64,000 nucleotides of DNA from contig JAKMDI010000023.1 of assembly GCA_022428005.1 (NCBI GenBank), positions 1 through 64,000 on the forward strand, read 5' to 3'. Under the pieces are notes generated by a model. It saw nothing but the letters and a program-made list of their open reading frames with translations. It was not told the origin of the DNA and did no database searches. Below are positions 3,701-41,710 of the stretch, one piece after another (positions within the stretch are counted from its first letter, which is position 1; every line of letters begins with the position of its first letter). The position numbers and the translations under genes are program-made. The DNA is from Flavobacteriaceae bacterium. Lineage in GTDB: Bacteria > Bacteroidota > Bacteroidia > Flavobacteriales > Flavobacteriaceae.

Positions 3701-6700
3701 GTTTTAAAGGAATTTCGATTTGATAATAATTGTCTAAAAAGTCGGTTCCCAATCGAATAAAAGCCACCAAGCGACGGTCGTAATCTTCGGCCGTACCTTC
3801 CCCTGGCAAGGGCTCTTGCCCCACGATTGACTCTGCGTGTAAAAACATCTTGAGGTTTTTGTATTGCCGCAGGTCAACATTTACATTTTTATAAACGGCC
3901 CTTGAATCCATAGGCTGAAGATCACAAATTCTAAAGGACAAGGACTGTTCGTTTTGACGGACAATGGTATTGTTGTTGTTGATTTGTTCCCGCTGAATAT
4001 CCGGTGGTAAAACATAATTGATGGGTATTCGGTTTTCATTTTCCAAAATATTCACGGTGCTGATGTCTACTGTTGTGTTGCTATAGTTGGGGAGTTCTTT
4101 GTTAAGCTTTTGATTGTATCGCCTCCAATCTCCCCTGACCAAATCCAATGTACCAAATCGCAGTACTACGGGATGTGAAAACCCCTTGAGCAACATTCTC
4201 ATAAACCTTATGGAACGTAAATCTTCTATGTTATTGACGGCCTCAAAATATTCTTCAAACTGGGTGTCTTCATAATAACCCTTTTGAACAGGCACCTTAA
4301 ACTGAATCCATCGGGTGGTGATTTCATCTCCGTTGGGTACTACGACTTTTACATTTTCACGAACATCGGTAATGAAGGGATGACTGCCCACTCCCATAGA
4401 TTTCGATATGGGGATTCGATATTCAAAGTAACTGTCGATGGTATTCATACTTTGGTCTCGATTGATGTCCTCAGAATCCGGCTCAGTGGTATTTCCTCTG
4501 TCGGTATCAGAAAAACCGATGGGTGCATTCCCTTCGGTGCCATTGTAATTTTTGTAACGGTCTAAAATACCTCCATCTGCTGCTACAAAAAATTGATAGT
4601 TGTCCCGCGCAGGATCTTCTGAGGGGCCATTGGTATAAATCAATCGCTCTTGGCTGTCGTCCAAGCCATCGAACCCAACGTCCTGAACTGCCCTGTCCTC
4701 AGCGACAGTGTTAAAGGCGTAGAGAAGGGACTGTGTGGAAGGTACTTTTCCCCAGGAGGTCTGGTGCACCAAGTTTTGGGCGGTGGGTCCTGGCAAGCCA
4801 TTTTCAAATTGTTTCCGGCCGTCTTTGAGAATATCCTCGGAAATATTCCCCAAATGGAAATACAGCGATCCCAAGTCATCTTGTTCAGAGGGTACTTCGT
4901 CAAAGGTATCCAATAACCAAAATTCAATGAATTCAACATTCGATTGTTCAAAATTGGTCGCATTAATCGCGCGCATAATCCCCCCCCAGTTCTCCTTTTT
5001 ATCTGCTTTAAATTCCGCTGCTGTGACATTGTTATAAGGACCAATTTCATCTGGGTAGTAGGCCAAGTCAAGGGTGTTTTGAACGGTGGTTGTCCCTTGA
5101 ACCAAATCTTGTTCTGGAAAAATCTCTTTGATAAAAATCCTGCGTGTAGTATTGAGGGAAATATCATCGTTGTTGATCCCCGAGGGTCTTCCACCGGCGT
5201 AAAAAATTGGATCAATGGAGTACCAAGCCATTTTTGCCCTTCCAAACCCCGCTTTAAGGTCGTTGTTAAGTGCATCAGCCCCTTTGAAGTTTTTATAGGG
5301 AATACTGGAAAGTTTCCACGAATTAAATCCCTTGATATCGATGTTGGTTTGAGCACCTTCAAAATCATCAATATAGACGTTGGATTCTCCTTGCAGCTGG
5401 GTGTTTTTTGGTTTGCCTGCAATGAGGTTTGCTACTTCACCCCTAAAGGATAAATTGGAGGGAACATTGGTTTTGATGGTTGGTATTTTGTTTACCCAAC
5501 GGGTTAAAAATGGCAGTTCGGTAGAAAAATTGGTATTGAAACCGATCATGGTATTGTTTACAGGCTCCGTCCCATAATTTGCTTTTTGGGTCAGTGGGTT
5601 TTCACTAAGGTTGAGTAGGGTCGCCCCAAAAACAACTTTATCACTGACTTTATGAACCAAGTTGAACCCCGAAAATCTTTTGTTTTGTTGATTGAAAAAA
5701 GAGTTGTTTTCTACCGAAATATTTATGGGAATATTTGAGGCCTCCAATGCAGGATCCAAAATTTTCACCCTTCCTATGGCATAATTTACGGTATAGTCGA
5801 GTCCTTCGCGCAAGACCCTTCCTCCTGCAGTGACTTTTACTGATCCTTGAGGAACATTGAACGCACCAATAGGAATACCATCTCCTCCTTCGGACTTGTA
5901 ACGCCCTTTTAATTGGAATTTATTTTTTTCTGTGGTCTCCAATGCCGCCGCCTTGGTTCTCAGATACATGTCGTTGAAAACATACCGCTTTTGATTTGCA
6001 TTGTAGGATTCAGCGTTTTTATAATCTTCCCTTTGAGAATTTGGGTTGTCCAAAAGATCAAATAAATATTCTCCAAAAGGCTCCACATTTGGAAAAATAA
6101 TTCTTCCGTATTGGGGTTCAATGGTGACCCCCGGCAGATAATCAAAAAATCCATCTCCCTCGGGCTGGGGGTCTTGATAGAAATTGAGTTTGTCTAAATT
6201 AAATGTGTTCAACAGAATTTTTTTATTCATTTCCTCAGGCCAAATCGATTTATCTACCGGTGTCAAGTAATTGATGGGCGAGGGATCTGAGTATAGAATA
6301 CTGAGCCTGAAATCTTCTTCAGATAGTTGAAAAGCCCCAGTATTGTAAATATTTTTCATCATTAAATCCCAGATGGGTTGCCGCACGTCAGTAATATTAC
6401 TTTTTAGAAGTTTTACGACCAAACTGTTGTTGTTGATCGCCTGAGTCCCGCCTTCAGGGTTTTGTGTTACCGATGTGGATTCTATACTGCCATTGGCAAA
6501 TTCCCCTACTTGATATACTTTCCCTCTGTAGGTATATTGAAACGCTACCGCCAATACTTCATCGTTGCTCAACCTTTGGTTTAAAGATATATAGCCCAGT
6601 TGTGGGTGCAGTTTATATTCATTTGAATTCAGTTTTCTTGCGCTTTCTAAAACGGCATAGTCAAATCCTTCGTTGATGGCATTGCTGTTGGCACCAAAAG

Positions 6701-32170: not shown

Positions 32171-33634
32171 ATGGAAAAACCCAAAATAAAAACCCTCAAA
32201 GCACTTCAAAAAACAGAATACCAACCAGAGAGCATTCAAAAAGAACTCGCAAGAAATCTCAGGGAAAAAATTAGAAAAGGAGAAAGCACCTTCGAGGGAC
32301 TTATCGGTTATGAAAACACGGTAATTCCAAACGTTGAACGGGCCATTCTTTCAGGTCACAACATCAATCTTTTGGGATTAAGAGGCCAGGCCAAAACAAG
32401 ACTGGCCAGAAAAATGACTGCCTTGCTCGACGAGTGGATCCCTGTAGTTGCAGGGTCCGATATCAATGACGATCCCCTGCAGCCTATTTCAAAATGGGCC
32501 ATAGAATTAATTGATGAAAAAGGAGGTGAAACACCCATTGATTGGATCCACCGCAGCGAACGTTTTTTTGAAAAATTAGCCACGCCAGATGTTACCGTAG
32601 CAGATTTGATAGGAGATGTTGATCCTATCAAGGCTGCCACCCTGAAGTTGAGTTATGCCGACGAGCGGGTTATACACTACGGGATGATCCCACGGGCGCA
32701 TCGTTGTATTTTTGTACTCAATGAACTGCCCGATTTACAAGCCAGGATTCAGGTGGCACTTTTTTCAATATTGCAAGAGAAAGAAATTCAAATCAGAGGA
32801 TTTAAGCTGAGGCTTCCCCTCGAAGTCCAGTTTGTATTTACCGCCAACCCGGAGGACTACACCAACAGAGGCAGCATCGTTACCCCTCTGAAAGACCGGA
32901 TTGGTTCTCAGATTTTAACGCATTATCCCCACAGTGTGGCCATTGCCAAAAAAATCACAGCACAAGAAGCCAATATTAGCGCAGCAAACGAATCCCAAAT
33001 ATATGTACCAGAACTGGCGAAAGATCTCTTGGAGCAAATTGCTTTTGAAGCCAGAAGAAGTGAATTCGTTGACGCCAAAAGCGGGGTGAGTACCAGAATG
33101 AGTATCACTGCCTACGAAAACTTAATCAGTACTGCAGAAAGAAGATTACTCATTACCCACGACAGTAATACCAACATAAGAATGGGCGATTTTTTGGGGA
33201 TAATTACTGCCATGATTGGAAAAATAGAGCTCGTTTATGAAGGCGAGCAAGAAGGTTCCAATGAGGTGGCTTTTCAGCTCATCACCAATGCTATCAAAAC
33301 CCTGTTTCCTAGCTATTTTCCAAAAATTGAAAAGCTAGAAAAACCCAATGAACCAGGACCTTATGATGCACTATTAGAATGGTTTTTTAAGGAGAATGAG
33401 TTGTTCATCGAGGATGACACTGATGAAAAAAACTATCAGAAATCTTTGGACAGTATTCCCGCCATCAAAAAAATCATAAAAAAAGCGCAGCCGCAACTGG
33501 AAGAAAAAGACTATTACTTTATGGCTGAATTTTTATTGTGGGGATTAGAAGCACATCAGAAACTAAACAAGCTCAGAACCCTGGAAGGAACTCAGTTTAA
33601 AGACAGCCTTGGGAGTTTTATCAATCGGCTCTAA
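32171..33634 (+). CDS. MoxR/magnesium-chelatase-like AAA+ ATPase
   Basis: A 487-residue AAA+ protein related to the ATPase subunits of magnesium chelatase and MoxR. The Walker A loop is degenerate (GLRGQAKT, residues 69-76: Ala in place of the last Gly), and the Walker B motif has Asn for Asp (FVLNELPD, N184-E185). Sensor 1 (FTANPEDY) and the arginine finger region (LKDRIGSQI) look intact. As I recall, close homologues share these changes, so they mark a distinct subfamily rather than a dead enzyme. The C-terminal 130 residues are helical and uncharacterised. It is paired with the upstream VWA gene. Its stop overlaps that of the convergent Rrf2 gene. Confidence 0.88.
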   Translation: MEKPKIKTLKALQKTEYQPESIQKELARNLREKIRKGESTFEGLIGYENTVIPNVERAILSGHNINLLGLRGQAKTRLARKMTALLDEWIPVVAGSDINDDPLQPISKWAIELIDEKGGETPIDWIHRSERFFEKLATPDVTVADLIGDVDPIKAATLKLSYADERVIHYGMIPRAHRCIFVLNELPDLQARIQVALFSILQEKEIQIRGFKLRLPLEVQFVFTANPEDYTNRGSIVTPLKDRIGSQILTHYPHSVAIAKKITAQEANISAANESQIYVPELAKDLLEQIAFEARRSEFVDAKSGVSTRMSITAYENLISTAERRLLITHDSNTNIRMGDFLGIITAMIGKIELVYEGEQEGSNEVAFQLITNAIKTLFPSYFPKIEKLEKPNEPGPYDALLEWFFKENELFIEDDTDEKNYQKSLDSIPAIKKIIKKAQPQLEEKDYYFMAEFLLWGLEAHQKLNKLRTLEGTQFKDSLGSFINRL

Positions 33635-34047
33635 ATTTTTGAACGCATGGTTTCAATAGAGGTGGTTGTAAGAATTTTCAGCGTTTTATCACGAACCTTC
33701 TCAAAGACACTTTTTATTTGACAATGTGCTTCATCACATTCATCACATGAAGAATAATAATTGAGAGAGACACAGGGTAACATGGCGATGGGGCCGTCTA
33801 CCTGTCGGATGAGTTCCGCTAAAAATATGTCTTTTGGATCTTTTATCAATCGGTAACCTCCTGTCTTACCTCTTTGACTTTGTAATAATTTAAAATTCCT
33901 TAATTCTCTTAGTATCGTTTCTAAAAATTTTTTGGGAATCTTTTCTTTTGCTGCTATCTCCGATGAAAATATAGACCGGTCTTCAGACTGATGATCGGCG
34001 AGATACAACAATGCCTTTATGGCGTATTTACATTTTTTTGATATCAT
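33631..34047 (-). CDS. Rrf2-family transcriptional regulator, probable regulator of sulfur assimilation
   Basis: This 138-residue winged-helix regulator starts at the ATG at 34047 (MISKKCKYAIKALLYLAD); an upstream ATG at 34062 is possible but adds an atypical extension. The DNA-binding half has FLETILRELRNFKLLQSQRGKTGGYRL, the Rrf2 wing. Four cysteines lie in the sensory loop, C92, C101, C104 and C109, close to the spacing of iron-sulfur-binding members such as IscR and NsrR. It is transcribed away from the sulfate assimilation operon, with a perfect inverted repeat in the shared promoter region. I infer that it controls that operon and itself in response to iron-sulfur or cysteine status. 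Confidence 0.88.
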   Translation of the reverse strand: MISKKCKYAIKALLYLADHQSEDRSIFSSEIAAKEKIPKKFLETILRELRNFKLLQSQRGKTGGYRLIKDPKDIFLAELIRQVDGPIAMLPCVSLNYYSSCDECDEAHCQIKSVFEKVRDKTLKILTTTSIETMRSKI

Positions 34048-34090
34048 AATTATACAGTACAAGATAATAAATAAAAAATATAATACTTAT

Positions 34091-34113
34091 ATTCCTATAA
34101 ACTTTATAGGAAT
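34091..34113. promoter_or_regulatory. Perfect inverted repeat, candidate Rrf2 operator
   Basis: ATTCCTATAAA (34091-34101), one base, then TTTATAGGAAT (34103-34113): a perfect 11-bp palindrome with a single-base spacer. It lies between the divergent Rrf2 and DUF2061/cys genes and ends two bases before the -33 box of the cys promoter. A dimer bound there would block or guide polymerase at that promoter. Confidence 0.7.
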
Positions 34114-34115
34114 TA

Positions 34116-34147
34116 TTTGTTTTATAGATATTAAGATTATAAATTTG
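34116..34147 (+). promoter_or_regulatory. Promoter of the sulfate assimilation operon
   Basis: TTTG (34116-34119), 20 bp, TAAATTTG (34140-34147): both elements match the Bacteroidota sigma consensus exactly with canonical spacing. The ATG of the first gene follows 22 bases later. This is the best complete promoter in the window. Confidence 0.8.
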
Positions 34148-34168: not shown

Positions 34169-34429
34169 ATGCTTTTAGACCTACATTTTGCTCGAAAAAA
34201 GAGTCCTGAAAAAGACACCACCCCAAAAGAATCCATTTCAAGGAGCGCCTTAAAAGCCATCAGTTGGAGGCTGGTGGGCACTTTTGACACCATTCTCATC
34301 GCCTATTTTATCACAGGAACTATTTCTCAAGCCCTATCGATAGGTTTTATTGAATGGGGAACAAAAATAGTTTTATACTTTATTCATGAACGCCTTTGGA
34401 ACCGACTCCGCTGGGGAAAAAATAATTAG
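34169..34429 (+). CDS. DUF2061 membrane protein, first gene of the sulfate assimilation operon
   Basis: An 86-residue protein starting MLLDLHFARKKSPEKD at the ATG at 34169. The frame extends further upstream, but that part covers the promoter and operator and is AT-rich non-coding sequence. The body matches DUF2061: SALKAISWRLVGTFDTILIAYFITG, then IGFIEWGTKIVLYFIHERLWNRLRWG, giving two short membrane segments. The family is often found with sulfate assimilation genes in Bacteroidota, but its function is unknown. A role in sulfate or sulfite movement is only a guess. cysH starts 2 bp after its stop. Confidence 0.88.
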   Translation: MLLDLHFARKKSPEKDTTPKESISRSALKAISWRLVGTFDTILIAYFITGTISQALSIGFIEWGTKIVLYFIHERLWNRLRWGKNN

Positions 34430-34431
34430 AA

Positions 34432-35142
34432 ATGGAAAACCATCGCATTGAAAAACTCAACGCCACATTTAAGGACTATTCGTTAGAGCAAGCTTTTGAA
34501 AAACTTGTAACGCTGGGCTTTTCAAAAATGGCCTTTTCTACATCTTTTGGACAAGAAGACCAAATTATCGCTGATGTGATTTTCAAAAATGATTACCCTA
34601 TAGAGGTATTTACTTTGGATACAGGAAGACTTTTCGAAGCAACCTACAAAGTGTTTGAAGATACCCAAACAAAATATCAAAAAAAGATAACGACCTACTT
34701 TCCAGAGCGCCATGCCGTGGAAAGTCTAATCAATGAAAAAGGCCCCTACAGCTTTTATGATAGTGTAGAAAACCGAAAAGAATGTTGTGAAATCAGAAAA
34801 GTTAACCCACTTCAAAAAGCTCTTAAAGGAGTTGATTTGTGGATTACTGGGTTAAGAGCCTCTCAGAGCACAGCCAGAAATGAAATTAAAATCTTTGGTT
34901 ATGATGCTGCTTTTGGGCTGCCAAAATTCAATCCCCTCGCCCATTGGGAATTGTCCACAGTGGAAAATTACTTGCAAGAAAAACAAGTTCCCCAAAACAG
35001 CCTGCACAAGGAAGGTTTTGTCAGTATAGGGTGTGCTCCCTGTACACGAGCTGTTCAAGAAGGCGAAGACATTCGATCTGGACGCTGGTGGTGGGAGGAG
35101 AGTAAAAAAGAGTGTGGTTTGCACTACAACAAAAAAATATAA
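34432..35142 (+). CDS. cysH: Assimilatory adenylylsulfate (APS) reductase
   Basis: A 236-residue thioredoxin-dependent reductase that produces sulfite. Two cysteine pairs, C118-C119 (KECCEIRK) and C201-x-x-C204 (CAPCT), are the [4Fe-4S] ligands that distinguish the APS-reducing type from the cluster-free PAPS type. The catalytic cysteine C228 lies in the C-terminal KKECGLH motif. The PP-loop-like SFGQED and the LDTGRLF motif bind the nucleotide. No APS kinase gene (cysC) is present in the operon, which agrees with direct use of APS from CysDN. Confidence 0.95.
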   Translation: MENHRIEKLNATFKDYSLEQAFEKLVTLGFSKMAFSTSFGQEDQIIADVIFKNDYPIEVFTLDTGRLFEATYKVFEDTQTKYQKKITTYFPERHAVESLINEKGPYSFYDSVENRKECCEIRKVNPLQKALKGVDLWITGLRASQSTARNEIKIFGYDAAFGLPKFNPLAHWELSTVENYLQEKQVPQNSLHKEGFVSIGCAPCTRAVQEGEDIRSGRWWWEESKKECGLHYNKKI

Positions 35143-35146
35143 TTAA

Positions 35147-36034
35147 ATGAATACCCTATCCTATTTGGAGGAAGAAGCCATCTATATCATAAGAGAGGTG
35201 GTTGGACAATTTGATAAACCTGTTCTTCTGTTTTCGGGAGGAAAGGACTCTATTGTCTTGTTGCACCTATGCAAAAAGGCTTTTCTTCCAGGAAAAATAC
35301 CTTTTCCGTTATTGCACATAGATACCGGTCACAACTTTCCCGAAACCATTTCCCTTAGAGATGAATTGGTGAAAAGATATCAAGTTAATCTTCACATTGG
35401 AAGTGTTCAAGAAAGCATTGACCAAGGAAAGGTCGTGGAAGAAAAGGGGAAATATGCCAGCAGGAATAGCCTCCAAACGACTACACTATTGGAAACCATT
35501 GAAAACTTAAAATTCGATGCCTGTATGGGAGGTGCCAGAAGAGATGAAGAAAAAGCCAGAGCAAAAGAACGGATATTCTCTGTGAGAGACGATTTTGGCC
35601 AATGGAATGAAAAACTACAAAGACCTGAGCTCTTTGACATATTAAATGGACAAATACACTCTGGAGAAAACGTTAGGGTTTTCCCCATCAGCAACTGGAC
35701 AGAACTCGATGTTTGGGAATACATCCGATATGAAAACCTTGAGATTCCCTCCATTTATTTTTCCCATCAGAGAACAGTGTTTTTTAGAGATGGACAATTG
35801 ATGCCCTGCTCTGATTTTATCCATCACAATCCAAACGAAGCCTTCCAAGAACACGTTAGATTCAGAACTGTAGGTGACATGAGTTGTACCGCCGCAGTAC
35901 CATCAAAAGCTGCAGACTTGGATACCGTAATCAATGAAATAAAAGGTTCGTCGATTTCGGAACGCGGCGCCAGGATGGACGACAAGAGGTCCGAAGGCGC
36001 CATGGAGGAACGAAAAAAAGTAGGTTACTTCTAA
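35147..36034 (+). CDS. cysD: Sulfate adenylyltransferase subunit 2 (CysD)
   Basis: CysD is the catalytic ATP sulfurylase subunit, forming APS from sulfate and ATP. The 295-residue protein has the PP-loop LLFSGGKDSIVLLHL, the HIDTGHNFPETISLRDE motif, and a conserved C-terminus rich in Arg and Glu (RGARMDDKRSEGAMEERKK). It needs the GTPase CysN, encoded 13 bp downstream. The start ATG 4 bp after cysH is the only reasonable one. Confidence 0.97.
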   Translation: MNTLSYLEEEAIYIIREVVGQFDKPVLLFSGGKDSIVLLHLCKKAFLPGKIPFPLLHIDTGHNFPETISLRDELVKRYQVNLHIGSVQESIDQGKVVEEKGKYASRNSLQTTTLLETIENLKFDACMGGARRDEEKARAKERIFSVRDDFGQWNEKLQRPELFDILNGQIHSGENVRVFPISNWTELDVWEYIRYENLEIPSIYFSHQRTVFFRDGQLMPCSDFIHHNPNEAFQEHVRFRTVGDMSCTAAVPSKAADLDTVINEIKGSSISERGARMDDKRSEGAMEERKKVGYF

Positions 36035-36047
36035 ACTCTAATCGCCC

Positions 36048-37286
36048 ATGGAAATTTTAAGAATTACAACCGCAGGCAGTGTGGATGACGGAAAAAGTAC
36101 CCTAATCGGACGACTGCTGTACGAAACCGACTCTCTAAAAATTGATCAGGTAGAAACCATCGAAGAGAAAAGTAAATCTTTGGGGTATGATTACATTGAC
36201 TTTTCGTTAGCAACAGATGGTTTACTGACAGAAAGAGAGCAAGGAATTACCATTGATGTATCCCACCTTTATTTCAGTACCCCAAAAAGAAGATTTATTA
36301 TCGCTGATGCACCAGGGCATGTGGAGTATACCCGCAACATGGTTACTGGAGCCTCAAATGTTGACGTTGCCATTATTCTTTTGGATGCAAGAAAAGGAGT
36401 AATGGAACAAACAAAAAGACACTTGTACATCACGCAATTGTTGGGGATTAACCAGCTGGTCATCACCATCAATAAAATGGATCTGATTGACTATGACGAA
36501 ATCCAATTCAATGCCATTCAACAGGAAATCGAAAAGTTGATCAGCGATTATGACTGGACTCCGAACTGCCACTTTATCCCTGTTTCTGCCTTAAAGGGCG
36601 ATAATGTCATCGCCAAAAGTCATAAAATGCCGTGGTACAAAGGAATTGACCTGTTGTCATTAATAGAAAATTTGAACCTCGATGAAACGGTCCACGGTGA
36701 AGGGCTGATGCAAGTACAACACGTCATTCGTCCGAAAACTGAGGAATATCACGACTATAGAGGTTTTGCAGGAAAAATAAAAAGCGGACGTTTCAACCCT
36801 GGAGATGAAATAGAAGTTTTTCCTTCGGGTCAAAAATCTAAAATTAAATCTATTGAAAAATATGGCGTAAAACAAAATACAACCGCCATTGGTGAAAATG
36901 CAACGCTTTTGCTCGAAGATGAAATAGATGCCTCCAGAGGGAATACTCTGGTCATCGCCAACAACAACCTAAAAACCGAAAAACTAATCAACGCCAAAAT
37001 ATGCTGGATGCAAAACGAGTCATTGAATCCAAACGGGAAATATTGGCTACAGCAAGGCGTATACAAATGCTTGATTAAAGTCAAAGAAGTGACTGCCAAA
37101 ATGGATTGGGAGTCATGGAAGTCTGTACCCACCGACAACCTTAACATGAACGACATCGGTGAGGTAGCCCTTCAATTGGCGCAACCGCTCCTACACGCTC
37201 CCTATCATAAAAATAAAAATTTAGGGGCATTCATACTTATAGATTCTCATACCAACAACACCGCAGGTGTTGGTTTTATTCAATAA
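36048..37286 (+). CDS. cysN: Sulfate adenylyltransferase subunit 1, GTPase (CysN)
   Basis: CysN is an EF-Tu-like GTPase that couples GTP hydrolysis to APS formation by CysD. The G1 motif is AGSVDDGKSTLIGRLL, G3 is DAPGHVEYTRNM and G4 is NKMDLIDYDE. At 412 residues it ends after the beta-barrel domains. There is no fused CysC (APS kinase) domain, unlike NodQ-type proteins. This supports a pathway that goes from APS straight to sulfite. Confidence 0.96.
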   Translation: MEILRITTAGSVDDGKSTLIGRLLYETDSLKIDQVETIEEKSKSLGYDYIDFSLATDGLLTEREQGITIDVSHLYFSTPKRRFIIADAPGHVEYTRNMVTGASNVDVAIILLDARKGVMEQTKRHLYITQLLGINQLVITINKMDLIDYDEIQFNAIQQEIEKLISDYDWTPNCHFIPVSALKGDNVIAKSHKMPWYKGIDLLSLIENLNLDETVHGEGLMQVQHVIRPKTEEYHDYRGFAGKIKSGRFNPGDEIEVFPSGQKSKIKSIEKYGVKQNTTAIGENATLLLEDEIDASRGNTLVIANNNLKTEKLINAKICWMQNESLNPNGKYWLQQGVYKCLIKVKEVTAKMDWESWKSVPTDNLNMNDIGEVALQLAQPLLHAPYHKNKNLGAFILIDSHTNNTAGVGFIQ

Positions 37287-37290
37287 ACAG

Positions 37291-39366
37291 ATGCAAAGCT
37301 TTCGTACCGAAATAGAAAACCCCATAGTAGAAAAAGACATCTTGGATTTAGAAAAGAAAATCCATGCCTTTAAAAACAACAAAATAGACGAGGAAAAATT
37401 TAGGAGTCTGCGCTTGGCCAGGGGCGTTTACGGACAGCGACAACAGGGAGTGCAAATGATCCGAATCAAACTCCCCTTGGGTAAATTCACCGCAAAACAA
37501 TTGCTGCGGATGGCAGAAGTTTCTGACGATTTTGCCTCTGGAAATTTACACATCACTACCCGTCAAGATATCCAGCTGCATTATGTCCCCTTGGACCGTA
37601 CCCCCGAGCTTTGGGCCTTATTAGAAAGAGATAAAATCACACTGCGAGAAGCGTGTGGAAATACAGTAAGGAATGTCACCGCATCGGTCTATGCTGGGGT
37701 AGATCCCAAAGAAGCCTTTGATGTGACACCCTATGCCCAGGCTTTTTTTGAATATTTTTTGAGAAACCCATTGTGCCAAGAAATGGGCCGGAAATTTAAA
37801 GTTGCTTTTTCGAGTTCTGTCGATGATCAGGCAATGACTTTTATTCACGACCTGGGGTTCATTCCCAAAATTAAAGAGGGGAAAAAAGGATTTAGGGTTT
37901 TACTGGGAGGCGGTATAGGTTCCCAACCCGAGGGCGCCAAGGAAATCTATGAATTCTTGGATACCGACAGCTATATTCCATTCAGCGAAGCCGTGATCAG
38001 GGTATTTGACCGCCATGGCGAAAGAAACCGAAGGAATAAAGCCAGATTGAAATTTTTGATTAAAGAAATGGGATTGGAAACATTCTTAACCCTTGTCGAG
38101 CAGGAATGGAAGGTTCTTTTAAAACCCAACTTAGTAGTCTCGCCCACAGAGCGATTATTAAAAACCCCACAATATCAGGGAGATACTGACATTGAAATTG
38201 AGGATACTGATTATGAAAATTGGAAACAAACCAACCTGTATTCTCAAAAACAAGAAGGTTATTTTGCTGTTGGTGTACCCATTACTGTGGGCGATTTATC
38301 ATCTGAAAAAGCAAGGCAGTTGGCCGAAGTCATCTTGCTTTTTACCAAAGATGACAATCGCTTTTCCTATGGGCAAAGCATCTTATTAAGGGATGTAAAA
38401 GCGGAGCACCTTCCTGCACTCTACTTATCTCTTAAAGAAATAGGACTCCACCAATCAGGTTTCCACCGCATCAACGACATTGTTGCCTGCCCCGGTACGG
38501 ACACCTGTAACCTTGGAATCGCCAGCAGTATGGGCTTGGCCAAAGCGCTTAAAAAAGTGATCGAAGAGGAGTATTCCGCAATGATAAAAAGCCACAAAAT
38601 TGATATAAAAATAAGTGGCTGCATGAATGCCTGTGGTCAACATACATTAGCGCATATTGGTTTCCAAGGCATGACCATCAAATCCGATGGTAAAATTGCC
38701 CCTGCCACTCAAATTCTTTTGGGAGGGGGTGTGCTCGGAAATGGAACGGGAAGGTTTGCAGATAAAGTGCTTAAAGTCCCCTCCAAAAGAACCCCTGCAG
38801 TATTGCGTTGGATTTTAGATGATTTTGAAAATCATCGCGATCAACAAGAAGACTTTTTTACCTATTACGACCGGAAAACAAAAGACTATTATTATCAAAA
38901 TCTTAAGCATTTCAGCGATGTCAGTAATTTAAGCCCGGATGATTTCATTGACTGGGGCGTAAAAGAAAAATATGAAAAAGCAATTGGTATTGGTGAATGT
39001 GCTGGTGTTACCATCGATTTGGTTCAAACCCTTTTGTTTGACGCCGAAGAGGCATTTGAATGGGCAAAGGAGTCCCTGGTGGAAAAGCGGTATAAAGATG
39101 CTGCCTACCATGCGTATAACGCCAGTGTAAGAGCAGCAAAAGCCATTTTGACCAAAGGCAGTGCCAAGATCAACAGCCATGTTTCAATTATCGAGGCATT
39201 TGATGCCCAGTTTCCAGAATTTAAAACTGAAAATGGGATTGGTTTTAAAGAGGCGGTCTTGAGAATACAAAAAGAAAAGCCCTCAAAACCATTTAGCAAA
39301 AGCTATTTAGAACAATCAAATCAGTTGATCCTGTGGATTAAAAATAAATGTAATGACGAAATATAA
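37291..39366 (+). CDS. Sulfite reductase (siroheme/[4Fe-4S]) with a C-terminal HEPN domain
   Basis: This single-chain nitrite/sulfite reductase should reduce sulfite to sulfide in six one-electron steps. I start at the ATG at 37291 (MQSFRTEIENP, 691 residues), because the upstream TTG frame overlaps cysN. The duplicated ferredoxin-like and reductase domains fill about 1-550, with cluster and siroheme ligands C400 and C406 (CPGTDTC) and C444 and C448 (CMNAC). Residues from about 560 form a helical HEPN domain (YKDAAYHAYNASVRAAKAIL, then NSHVSIIEAF). The place in the operon, next to siroheme synthesis and FNR genes, makes sulfite a better substrate than nitrite. The HEPN tail has no known role here. 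Confidence 0.92.
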   Translation: MQSFRTEIENPIVEKDILDLEKKIHAFKNNKIDEEKFRSLRLARGVYGQRQQGVQMIRIKLPLGKFTAKQLLRMAEVSDDFASGNLHITTRQDIQLHYVPLDRTPELWALLERDKITLREACGNTVRNVTASVYAGVDPKEAFDVTPYAQAFFEYFLRNPLCQEMGRKFKVAFSSSVDDQAMTFIHDLGFIPKIKEGKKGFRVLLGGGIGSQPEGAKEIYEFLDTDSYIPFSEAVIRVFDRHGERNRRNKARLKFLIKEMGLETFLTLVEQEWKVLLKPNLVVSPTERLLKTPQYQGDTDIEIEDTDYENWKQTNLYSQKQEGYFAVGVPITVGDLSSEKARQLAEVILLFTKDDNRFSYGQSILLRDVKAEHLPALYLSLKEIGLHQSGFHRINDIVACPGTDTCNLGIASSMGLAKALKKVIEEEYSAMIKSHKIDIKISGCMNACGQHTLAHIGFQGMTIKSDGKIAPATQILLGGGVLGNGTGRFADKVLKVPSKRTPAVLRWILDDFENHRDQQEDFFTYYDRKTKDYYYQNLKHFSDVSNLSPDDFIDWGVKEKYEKAIGIGECAGVTIDLVQTLLFDAEEAFEWAKESLVEKRYKDAAYHAYNASVRAAKAILTKGSAKINSHVSIIEAFDAQFPEFKTENGIGFKEAVLRIQKEKPSKPFSKSYLEQSNQLILWIKNKCNDEI

Positions 39367-40120
39367 TAAAGGAACTGTTACCCTGGTTGGTGCCGGCCCT
39401 GGTGATCCAGAACTGTTGACCATAAAAGGACTCAAAGCCATTGAAAAAGCGGATGTTATTCTGTATGACGCTCTGATCAACCCTGTTTTATTGGACCACA
39501 ATCCAACAGCTCAAAAAATATTTGTTGGAAAGAGAAGGGGCTTTCTCAAAAAAAAACAAGTTGAGATCAATGAGCTGATCGAAAAATTAGCCAATAAAGG
39601 ACTTGATGTCGTGAGACTAAAAGGAGGAGATCCCTTAGTTTTTGGTCGCGCCTGCGAGGAACTTGAGGTTGCTAAAAAAGCCTTTATATCCACTGAGATC
39701 ATTGCGGGAATTGCTTCTTATACGGGCATTGCTGCCCAGCACCAAATTCCCTTGACCAAGCGGGGAGAACACGAGAGTTTTTGGGTGGTCACTGGCCATA
39801 CCCAAAATGCGAAATTGTCATCAGATATTTCTCTTGCTGCGCAATCTACCGCAACAGTAGTGGTCCTTATGGGCATGCGTTTTCTCGCTGAAATTGTTGA
39901 TATTTTTAAGCAATTCAACAATGGGGATTATCCTGTCGCCGTGATCCAAAATGGTACTACCTCGGCAGAAAAATCATTGCTGGCCGACTTAGATACCATC
40001 ACAGATCTGGTCAAACAGCATCAAATTGACAACCCGTCTGTACTCATTTTTGGTCAGGCAGCAGCAGACCCTGTCACCCATTACAAAAATTTAGTGAAAG
40101 AAGAAGCTTTAGCCCTATGA
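39353..40120 (+). CDS. cobA: Uroporphyrinogen-III C-methyltransferase
   Basis: This 255-residue S-adenosylmethionine-dependent enzyme methylates uroporphyrinogen III twice to precorrin-2, the first step toward siroheme. The diagnostic motifs are TLVGAGPGDPELLTIKGLKA near the start and VRLKGGDPLVFGRACEE at about residue 85. It overlaps the end of the sulfite reductase gene by 14 bases and the next gene by 4 (ATGA). The protein supplies the siroheme branch, whose precursor comes from the hem genes about 17 kb away. Confidence 0.96.
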   Translation: MTKYNKGTVTLVGAGPGDPELLTIKGLKAIEKADVILYDALINPVLLDHNPTAQKIFVGKRRGFLKKKQVEINELIEKLANKGLDVVRLKGGDPLVFGRACEELEVAKKAFISTEIIAGIASYTGIAAQHQIPLTKRGEHESFWVVTGHTQNAKLSSDISLAAQSTATVVVLMGMRFLAEIVDIFKQFNNGDYPVAVIQNGTTSAEKSLLADLDTITDLVKQHQIDNPSVLIFGQAAADPVTHYKNLVKEEALAL

Positions 40121-40695
40121 ACACCCTCTATCCCATATTTCTAAAGGCGGAGCAACTTGAGTTTCTTGTTGTTGGAGGAGGCTATGTTGCCCTTGAAAAA
40201 TTATCTTTTTTATACAAATCCAGCCCCGAGGCAAAGGTAACTTTAATCGCTCCTTTTGTTAGGTCAGAAACTTTGGACTTAATCAAAGAAAAACCTGTTA
40301 CAGTAATAAAAAAGGAATACCAAGAAAGCGATCTTGAAAACAAAAATATAGTCATTGCAACAACGGACAGTGAGGCTGTAAACCTGAAAGTTAATTTGGA
40401 TTGTAAAAAAAGAAAAATACTGGTCAACGTGGCCGATACCCCTGACCAATGTGACTTTTACATGGGAAGCATTGTGACCAAAGGGAATTTAAAAATAGGA
40501 ATTTCCACCAACGGAAAGTCCCCCACCTTAGCCAAGAGAATGCGGCAATTTTTGGAAGATATCTTGCCCGAGGAAATCGACCCGCTGTTGGAGACTCTTA
40601 GAAAATATAGAAAAAATTTAAAAAATGACTTTGCTTATAAAGTAAAAGAGATGAACAAAGTCACAGCATCTTTAATAAAAACAGAAAATGATTAA
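40117..40695 (+). CDS. Precorrin-2 dehydrogenase / sirohydrochlorin ferrochelatase (Met8-like)
   Basis: A 192-residue protein with the Rossmann motif FLVVGGGYVALEKL and the downstream VADTPDQCDFYMGSIVTKGNLKIGISTNGKSP block typical of the CysG N-terminal half and of Met8. It oxidises precorrin-2 with NAD and probably inserts iron to give siroheme. It is a stand-alone protein; with the separate cobA it covers the functions of the enterobacterial CysG fusion. The start is coupled to cobA by ATGA and the stop overlaps the next gene by 8 bases. Confidence 0.93.
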   Translation: MNTLYPIFLKAEQLEFLVVGGGYVALEKLSFLYKSSPEAKVTLIAPFVRSETLDLIKEKPVTVIKKEYQESDLENKNIVIATTDSEAVNLKVNLDCKKRKILVNVADTPDQCDFYMGSIVTKGNLKIGISTNGKSPTLAKRMRQFLEDILPEEIDPLLETLRKYRKNLKNDFAYKVKEMNKVTASLIKTEND

Positions 40696-41710
40696 AACTG
40701 ACATCATCATTATTGGAGCAGGGCCCGTAGGCCTATTTACGATTTTTGAAGCAGGACTTATGAAGCTTCGCTGTCATGTGATCGATGCTATCCCCCAAGT
40801 GGGAGGCCAGCTGAAGGAGATTTATCCCAAAAAACCAATTTATGATATCCCTGGGTTTCCCTCCATACTGGCAGGAGACCTGATCGATAATCTTCAAAAA
40901 CAGGCAGCCCCTTTTCAACCGGGATATACCCTGGGTGAAAGGGCCGAAAAAATTGAAAAGCAAGAGGACGGTACTTTTGTTGTGACCACCAGTGAAGGAA
41001 CTGTTCATAAGGCACCTTCGGTGATTATAGCGGGAGGACTGGGGAGTTTTGAACCGAGAAAACCTCTCATCGAGAAGCTCGAAAAATATGAAAAAAAAGG
41101 TGTTGAATACATGGTCAAAGCGCCATCCGATTTTTTAAACAAACGAATATTTATATCTGGAGGGGGAGATTCTGCACTGGACTGGGCCATCTATTTTGCT
41201 GAAAAAGGCAACCTGCCCGTTGGGTTGGTTCACCGATCCGATATGTTCCGTGCGCACAAAGACTCCGTTGATCAAATTTATCGACTTCAGGAAACTGGAA
41301 AAATTGAATTGTACACCCATGCCGAAATCAAAGGAATAAATGGGGATAAAGAATTGGAATCTGTTGAAGTTCATCAAAAAGATAGCGCTCCAAAAACGAT
41401 CTCCGTGGATTATTGGCTCCCCTTGTTTGGCCTTGCTCCAAAGTTGGGCCCCATTGGAAATTGGGGTCTTGACATTGAAAAAAACGCTATAAAGGTGGAT
41501 CACACTTTGGATTATCAAACCAATATTCCAGGGGTATTTGCTGTTGGGGATGTGAACACCTATCCAGGAAAACTTAAGCTAATTCTTTGTGGATTCCACG
41601 AAGCTACCTTAGCGGTACAATCCTGCTATAAAATAATCCATCCGGAAAAGAAATTCACGATGAAATATACCACCGTTCAGGGTGTACAAGGGTTTGAAAA
41701 AGTAGTATAG
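40688..41710 (+). CDS. Ferredoxin--NADP reductase, thioredoxin-reductase-like type
   Basis: A 340-residue flavoprotein with FAD motif IIIGAGPVGLFTIFEAG, NADP motif ISGGGDSALDWAIYFAE, and the C-terminal FAD contact VFAVGDVNTYPGKLKLIL. It lacks the CxxC redox pair of thioredoxin reductase, so it belongs to the YumC-like ferredoxin-NADP reductases. As the last gene of the sulfate assimilation operon, which has no CysJ-type flavoprotein, it most likely reduces the ferredoxin that feeds sulfite reductase. This link is inferred from context. Confidence 0.93.
   Translation: MIKTDIIIIGAGPVGLFTIFEAGLMKLRCHVIDAIPQVGGQLKEIYPKKPIYDIPGFPSILAGDLIDNLQKQAAPFQPGYTLGERAEKIEKQEDGTFVVTTSEGTVHKAPSVIIAGGLGSFEPRKPLIEKLEKYEKKGVEYMVKAPSDFLNKRIFISGGGDSALDWAIYFAEKGNLPVGLVHRSDMFRAHKDSVDQIYRLQETGKIELYTHAEIKGINGDKELESVEVHQKDSAPKTISVDYWLPLFGLAPKLGPIGNWGLDIEKNAIKVDHTLDYQTNIPGVFAVGDVNTYPGKLKLILCGFHEATLAVQSCYKIIHPEKKFTMKYTTVQGVQGFEKVV

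Follow-up and report, generated by a model that had tools for sequence, protein, structure and literature searches.

Our study confirmed a 23 bp palindrome between a divergently transcribed rrf2 gene and a sulfate-assimilation (cys) operon of a Flavobacteriaceae genome, in a stretch of 64 000 nucleotides (hereafter the window). The palindrome is very probably the binding site of a dimer of the neighbouring Rrf2 protein, which, when bound, would repress the sulfate-assimilation operon as well as, in this genus, the divergent gene that encodes it. As the site recurs before the same genes in many flavobacteria, it is probably a switch for making reduced sulfur. The genomes compared directly show the site and its frame, the association with the regulator, the positions at predicted promoters and two groups of target genes. 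Flavobacteriaceae make up a large share of the communities in soils, seas and fresh waters (PMC9723704), and a named regulator, operator and target list make the control of sulfate assimilation testable.

The palindrome and its locus

The palindrome, ATTCCTATAAACTTTATAGGAAT, is an exact 11-1-11 inverted repeat with arms ATTCCTATAAA and TTTATAGGAAT around a single C, as the initial annotation had noted, and holds a CCTA-N9-TAGG core. Both boxes of the full promoter that had been placed beside it are present, with TTTG lying two bases after the palindrome and followed, 20 nucleotides on, by TAAATTTG. This fits the sigma-A -7 box of Flavobacterium psychrophilum, TAnnTTTG, which occupies -12 to -5 (PMC9723704). 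A scan for Escherichia coli-type promoters performed no better than it did on shuffled sequence. The rrf2 gene has a weaker candidate -7 box, with four of six bases matching in the window compared to five or six of six at other divergent loci. The features are as follows.

33631-34047, minus strand: Rrf2-family regulator, 138 aa, with a conserved ATG at 34047
34059-34066, minus strand: candidate rrf2 promoter -7 box TATCTTGT, inferred and weak (4/6 bases match)
34091-34113, no strand: candidate Rrf2 operator, a palindrome with a CCTA-N9-TAGG core; top match in the window (14.3 bits) to the motif from other genera
34116-34119, plus strand: predicted -33 box TTTG for the cys genes, 2 bp past the operator
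34140-34147, plus strand: predicted -7 box TAAATTTG for the cys genes
34169-34429, plus strand: DUF2061 membrane protein, at the head of the operon
34432-35142, plus strand: cysH, APS/PAPS reductase
35147-36034, plus strand: cysD, sulfate adenylyltransferase small subunit
36048-37286, plus strand: cysN, sulfate adenylyltransferase large subunit
37291-39366, plus strand: sulfite/nitrite reductase-type hemoprotein with a C-terminal HEPN domain; named sulfite reductase from context
39353-40120, plus strand: cobA, uroporphyrinogen-III methyltransferase (siroheme)
40117-40695, plus strand: cysG N-terminal domain, precorrin-2 dehydrogenase (siroheme)
40688-41710, plus strand: pyridine-nucleotide disulfide oxidoreductase, ferredoxin-NADP reductase-like by inferred name

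The HEPN domain scored 26.5 bits against a Pfam cut-off of 22, and its fusion to a sulfite/nitrite reductase-type protein looks unusual.

The intergenic region is AT-rich and contains several partial inverted repeats, a setting in which a palindrome could arise by chance. Against this, 60 windows of 64 kb simulated with a first-order Markov model gave no perfect 11-1-11 palindrome, and pooling spacers of 0–8 gave a mean of 0.2 perfect palindromes per Markov window; together with the conservation across genera described below, these controls make chance scarcely credible. No second copy was found at up to three mismatches in the 64 kb window, nor did the genome search suggested by the initial annotation recover one at that threshold in the 1.72 Mb assembly (82 % complete). 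Sites with a looser core (two to three mismatches) were set aside as noise, as a backward control gave 17 matches compared to 12 for the pattern itself.

Conservation at divergent rrf2-cys loci

A search with the window Rrf2 gave matches in 86 of 149 genomes (E ≤ 0.001). Close relatives, called orthologs by identity alone (44–91 %), accounted for 62 matches in 60 genomes, with 44–100 % identity over most of the protein when the window's own is included; the remaining matches were paralogs of 20–37 % identity and short fragments in three genomes (G001, G011 and G015). Neighbourhoods were taken for 60 of the 61 non-window matches (L063–L122), omitting a second copy in G050 that carries a stop codon.

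The divergent layout was seen at nine other loci (L063–L071), which weigh less as evidence because eight belong to the window's genus and are not independent; the ninth is from another genus (G063). At these nine loci the site lies 64–67 bp before the rrf2 start and scores 12.4–18.1 bits. Alignment with relatives, which had been proposed as a check, showed that the CCTA-N9-TAGG core mostly persists in the ten divergent rows, with core columns more conserved than the flanks, and that symmetry is perfect in three (the window, L064 and L065). It is thus the core, rather than perfect symmetry, that is conserved. TTTG occupies the same position in eight of the ten rows (the window and L064–L070) and is absent from L063 and L071.

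Among the 22 genomes of the window's genus, many of which are incomplete, 9 carry a full-length rrf2, and cysD was found in exactly those 9. From two others (G011 and G015) the cys genes are absent between conserved flanks, and at L169 a 26-residue tail of rrf2 directly adjoins the tail of the last gene; these junctions indicate that the rrf2-cys unit is lost as a block in two genomes of the genus (L169 and L170). The 13 of 22 genomes in which cysD had no match may depend on reduced sulfur, although the assemblies are incomplete. The loss of the whole unit from some relatives with small genomes also has a bearing on which of them need to import reduced sulfur.

A motif learned from other genera

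The usual arrangement in other genera is tandem, with rrf2 ahead of the cys genes. We searched 51 regions past the rrf2 stop, all from outside the divergent set, for a palindromic motif of width 23 and obtained tAtCCTAttaAaTtaaTAGGaTa with a log-likelihood of 593, compared to 51–59 in six mononucleotide shuffles. Its frame is CCTA-N9-TAGG, the same as that of the window palindrome. The motif exceeded 14 bits in 43 of the 51 regions, an in-sample figure, compared to 0.07 % of 20 000 Markov-1 regions of 200 bp. Trained without the window's genus, it ranked position 34091 top in the window at 14.3 bits (runner-up 10.8), and with another background at 16.9 bits (runner-up 6.9).

A control search on 51 regions upstream of rrf2 yielded a different motif with a log-likelihood of 211, which is probably conserved coding sequence; an unrelated motif at this level means that shuffles alone understate chance. 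A non-palindromic model fitted better (log-likelihood 760), indicating that the half-sites differ outside the window's genus, with half-site consensus CTAcTAA compared to GATAGGAT.

A first, looser pattern was rejected, as it matched 79 genomes among the 149 relatives while its backward control also matched many. The pattern derived from the learned motif pointed to unlinked cys operons and to a peroxiredoxin gene. Some of its matches lie inside genes or have no explanation (L173 and L178).

The candidate operator follows the regulator and the cys genes

A site was found for 58 of the 60 close relatives, beside rrf2 in 52 and at a more distant cys operon in six. The tandem-type set had a site for 49 of 51; eight of the 51 lacked a credible one beside rrf2, counting a 12.1-bit match at L102 as none. 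The site is found before the cys genes even where rrf2 stands at least 1.4 kb away from them or on a separate contig, as seen in six genomes (G032, L087; G023, L088; G053, L102; G024, L163; G070, L165; G067, L166). No site was found at the cys genes for L101 (G083) or L107 (G127); G083 has no cysD match, and the cysD of G127 is only 61 % identical and located elsewhere. In G127, a site of 19 bits also precedes a predicted oxidoreductase gene (L164:5560).

Of the 43 tandem-type loci that carry a site beside rrf2, 37 continue with an identified cys gene, three with a PAPS-reductase ORF (L072, L103 and L113) and one, L108, with an unrelated ORF. L074 and L121, which represent a second type of rrf2 locus within one family, have the site before a TauE/SafE sulfite exporter ORF and not before an intact cysH. 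Across the 60 neighbourhoods (0.91 Mb) there were 72 sites above 14 bits, of which 61 lie no more than 800 bp before DUF2061, cysH, cysD or sulfite reductase. Of the others, 7 are next to rrf2 only, and 4 lie elsewhere (L076, L097, L107 and L121).

If the site belonged to another regulator, its nearness to rrf2 would be incidental. Many relatives do carry additional Rrf2 paralogs, which would allow for this, but the window's Rrf2 is the only PF02082 protein found in its 82 % complete assembly, and 20 paralog neighbourhoods (86.6 kb) yielded a single site above 14 bits, with three exceeding 12. Control cysD loci were sampled from 20 of the 38 cysD-positive genomes without a close Rrf2 relative, and none had a site above 12 bits before its cys genes, including two that keep the same DUF2061-cysD operon with a CysD 69–70 % identical (L313 and L314). 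Two control loci have a site elsewhere (L320 and L322). Judged from these sequences, the site co-occurs with the regulator and not merely with the operon, and ownership by another regulator is quite improbable.

The initial annotation had proposed the palindrome as the operator of this Rrf2 group in the control of sulfate assimilation, and had held that a palindrome not conserved upstream of cys genes in species that keep the regulator would speak against it. The site is kept upstream of the cys genes where the Rrf2 is kept, and the proposal is strongly supported at the sequence level.

Position at predicted promoters and probable mode of action

We tabulated 49 operators in 43 tandem-type loci against their predicted -7 boxes. 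The largest group (31 of 49) begins 10–14 bp after the start of the -7 box, at approximately -2 to +3, and so lies over the start point. A further 11 begin 27–37 bp before the start of the box, over the -33 region; six of these were measured to GATATTTG, a relaxed -7 box added for this tabulation. Five operators, all second operators of their loci, begin 70 bp before the box (approximately -82 to -60), and two, both at L118, have no clear -7 match. Since the start point or the -33 region is covered in most tandem loci, repression is the likeliest mode of action.

In the window the operator occupies approximately -61 to -39 for the cys operon, starting 49 bp before its -7 box, and approximately -59 to -37 for rrf2, 47 bp before the weak rrf2 box. 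Lying upstream of the -33 region, this position would also suit an activator, and the Rrf2 protein might bind the palindrome and activate the cys promoter in this genus, given an operator just upstream of the -33 box and centred at approximately -50. The constant 49 bp between operator start and cys -7 box start in the window and seven of the nine other divergent loci agrees with such a role, as do the five tandem-type loci with a second operator 70 bp before the -7 box, and within the Rrf2 family IscR is already known to activate, at suf (PMC9973013). Against activation, the start point or -33 region lies under 42 of the 49 tandem-type operators (the relaxed box was used for six of them), and the offsets of -10, -14, 27, 35 and 49 bp do not fall on a common face of the helix, as would be expected of occlusion more than of contact activation. 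We consider activation in this genus unlikely.

That 31 of the 49 operators coincide with the point where the cys transcript is predicted to begin would also be expected if the palindrome acted as RNA, in the form of a leader hairpin, attenuator or terminator. However, the window site lies upstream of both predicted promoters, and the site covers the -33 region at other loci. The lone Rfam match was far under its gathering score and located elsewhere, as was the lone terminator-like match (34011–34025). A role in RNA is therefore very improbable.

Six loci have paired operators 80–81 bp apart around the promoter (L090, L096, L097, L100, L110 and L118), and pairs with the same spacing occur in G070 and G032 (L165 and L167); at L088 and L099 the two sites are instead separated by 115 and 260 bp, respectively. 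In seven of the eight genomes with 80–81 bp pairs, a further site lies 48–58 bp before a sulfite reductase match (L090, L097, L100, L110, L165, L167 and L168; L168 is a further contig of G057, to which L118 belongs).

Under repression, the preferred reading, a dimer of Rrf2 would bind the operator and, lying over the start point or the -33 region, block transcription; in the window's lineage it would do so from a position against the -33 boxes of both divergent promoters. The initial annotation had suggested a redox or iron–sulfur sensor, of which the comparison shows the conservation of the four cysteines. With least certainty, these four conserved cysteines may hold a metal or an iron–sulfur cluster, or act as a thiol switch, and a shortage of reduced sulfur or thiols, or oxidation of the cysteine centre, may release the repressor. 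Release would then turn on sulfate reduction together with thiol-protection genes.

Peroxiredoxin and bacillithiol transferase as possible additional targets

Pattern matches in three genomes (G022, G032 and G076) precede the same gene, a peroxiredoxin with a 1-cysPrx_C domain. We scanned 30 of the 37 peroxiredoxin matches listed as loci, all from genomes with an Rrf2 relative. A site of at least 17 bits was found before the 1-Cys peroxiredoxin at 14 of the 30, at -35 to -73 and in two families; the other 16 scored -7.3 to 11.5 bits. The 1-Cys peroxiredoxin is thus a probable second target on the basis of these matches. The window genome had no peroxiredoxin match at E ≤ 1e-60 in its 82 % complete assembly. 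In all three genomes, a gene of the DinB superfamily lies divergently across the same site (L177:4855, L179:4848 and L180:4926), and the copies at L177 and L180 are YfiT-family bacillithiol transferases, with scores of 248.5 and 252 compared to an NCBIfam cut-off of 160. Targets of these two kinds hint at a common sulfur and thiol signal.

The Rrf2 protein

The window protein matched PF02082 over residues 2–134 with 119 bits, compared to a gathering score of 30. Its cysteines are C6, C92, C101, C104 and C109, so that the four reported by the initial annotation (C92, C101, C104 and C109) are present and C6 is a fifth. The spacing C-x8-C-x2-C-x4/5-C is kept in 139 of 140 relatives, comprising all 60 close-relative loci and 79 of 80 loci sampled across Bacteroidota (two of which, L203 and L204, are probably repeats and not independent of G009 and G005), and in none of 20 paralogs. 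The exception is L205, from a MAG, where an rrf2 gene (4001–4414) has an in-frame stop right after C92; the operator persists there. A tyrosine at position 8 is invariant in alignment A1 (19 sequences).

A fold was modelled as an AlphaFold monomer from an alignment of the window protein with 39 of the 80 Bacteroidota loci, omitting L205 with its stop codon. The model (mean pLDDT 86.9; helices 28–35, 39–51 and 110–128, strands 55–58 and 64–67) has a winged helix-turn-helix and a long dimerization helix; the cysteine loop (residues 91–100) is its least certain part, with a pLDDT of 60. The top matches in the PDB were Rrf2 proteins, the best by E-value being Bacillus subtilis CymR (2y75), with a TM-score of 0.80 by query. 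Scores fell below the cut-offs of all four specific models: NF047409 (CymR), the best specific NCBIfam model by E-value, gave 66 bits (cut-off 195), TIGR02010 (IscR) 62.6 (207.55), PRK11920 (RirA) 54.6 (193) and PRK11014 (NsrR) 40.3 (182).

Taking protein and targets together, we tentatively suggest, at somewhat less than even confidence, that this is a separate Rrf2 subfamily of Bacteroidota. Its connector, with the C-x8-C-x2-C-x4/5-C spacing, might provide all four metal or iron–sulfur ligands within one subunit, making a combined sulfur-and-thiol sensor. One operator family would then couple sulfate reduction to the 1-Cys peroxiredoxin and, through the shared divergent promoter region, to the bacillithiol transferase, and one group of genera would repress via an operator pair 80–81 bp apart.

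Reach beyond Flavobacteriales

A site above 13 bits was found at rrf2 or after it in 15 of the 80 Bacteroidota loci (7 divergent and 8 tandem). Such a site is missing from almost all loci of Sphingobacterium, Mucilaginibacter and Pedobacter; the orthologs of these three genera (L210–L282) keep the four cysteines but mostly not the operator. Outside Flavobacteriales, the operator was mostly not found. A separate motif search on these 73 loci gave a weaker, AT-rich pattern with a log-likelihood of 224, compared to 52–62 in three shuffles, of which a variant near ATTTCCATATACTATATATAT occurs mostly where sulfite reductase follows. Being weaker, this pattern is not claimed as the same operator.

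Comparison with known systems

CymR is the repressor of cysteine metabolism in Firmicutes; it belongs to the Rrf2 family and forms a complex with CysK as its corepressor. The flavobacterial protein resembles CymR in its fold family, in the sulfur pathway that comparative genomics suggests for it and in its best specific NCBIfam model by E-value, but differs in scoring well short of the cut-off of that model. B. subtilis CymR binds no iron–sulfur cluster, according to the available text of PMC9338935, whereas the flavobacterial group has four kept cysteines.

Searches of one open-access library found no paper on this regulator, its operator or the control of sulfate assimilation in flavobacteria. 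This agrees with the view of the initial annotation that the operator is undescribed, within a literature from which most subscription papers are missing; an earlier prediction of the regulator or operator may exist in such papers or in RegPrecise. In the parts available, PMC9218516 mentions three large uncharacterized Rrf2 clusters, and PMC9239112 mentions the Rrf2-family ywnA in a redox response, with nothing on sulfate.

The iron–sulfur regulators IscR, NsrR, RirA and RsrR share with the flavobacterial protein the Rrf2 fold and conserved connector cysteines, and its operator has the same length as that of ScNsrR, 23 bp (PMC9338935). Its C-x8-C-x2-C-x4/5-C with Tyr8 differs from the spacings of IscR, NsrR and RsrR as given in the available text of PMC9218516, where IscR has Cys-X5-Cys-X5-Cys-X2-His and ScNsrR has D8, C93, C98 and C105. 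RirA has four invariant cysteines in an arrangement reminiscent of NsrR (PMC9218516); the flavobacterial protein scores below the RirA cut-off. The operator of the thiol-type Rrf2 repressors SifR/HypR, TGTAA-N9-TTACA, has its arms nine bases apart, as does CCTA-N9-TAGG, but the arm sequence is different, and those proteins have one or two cysteines and targets in quinone or HOCl response (PMC9218516, as far as available). Set beside these systems, the regulator would add a Bacteroidota counterpart to CymR.
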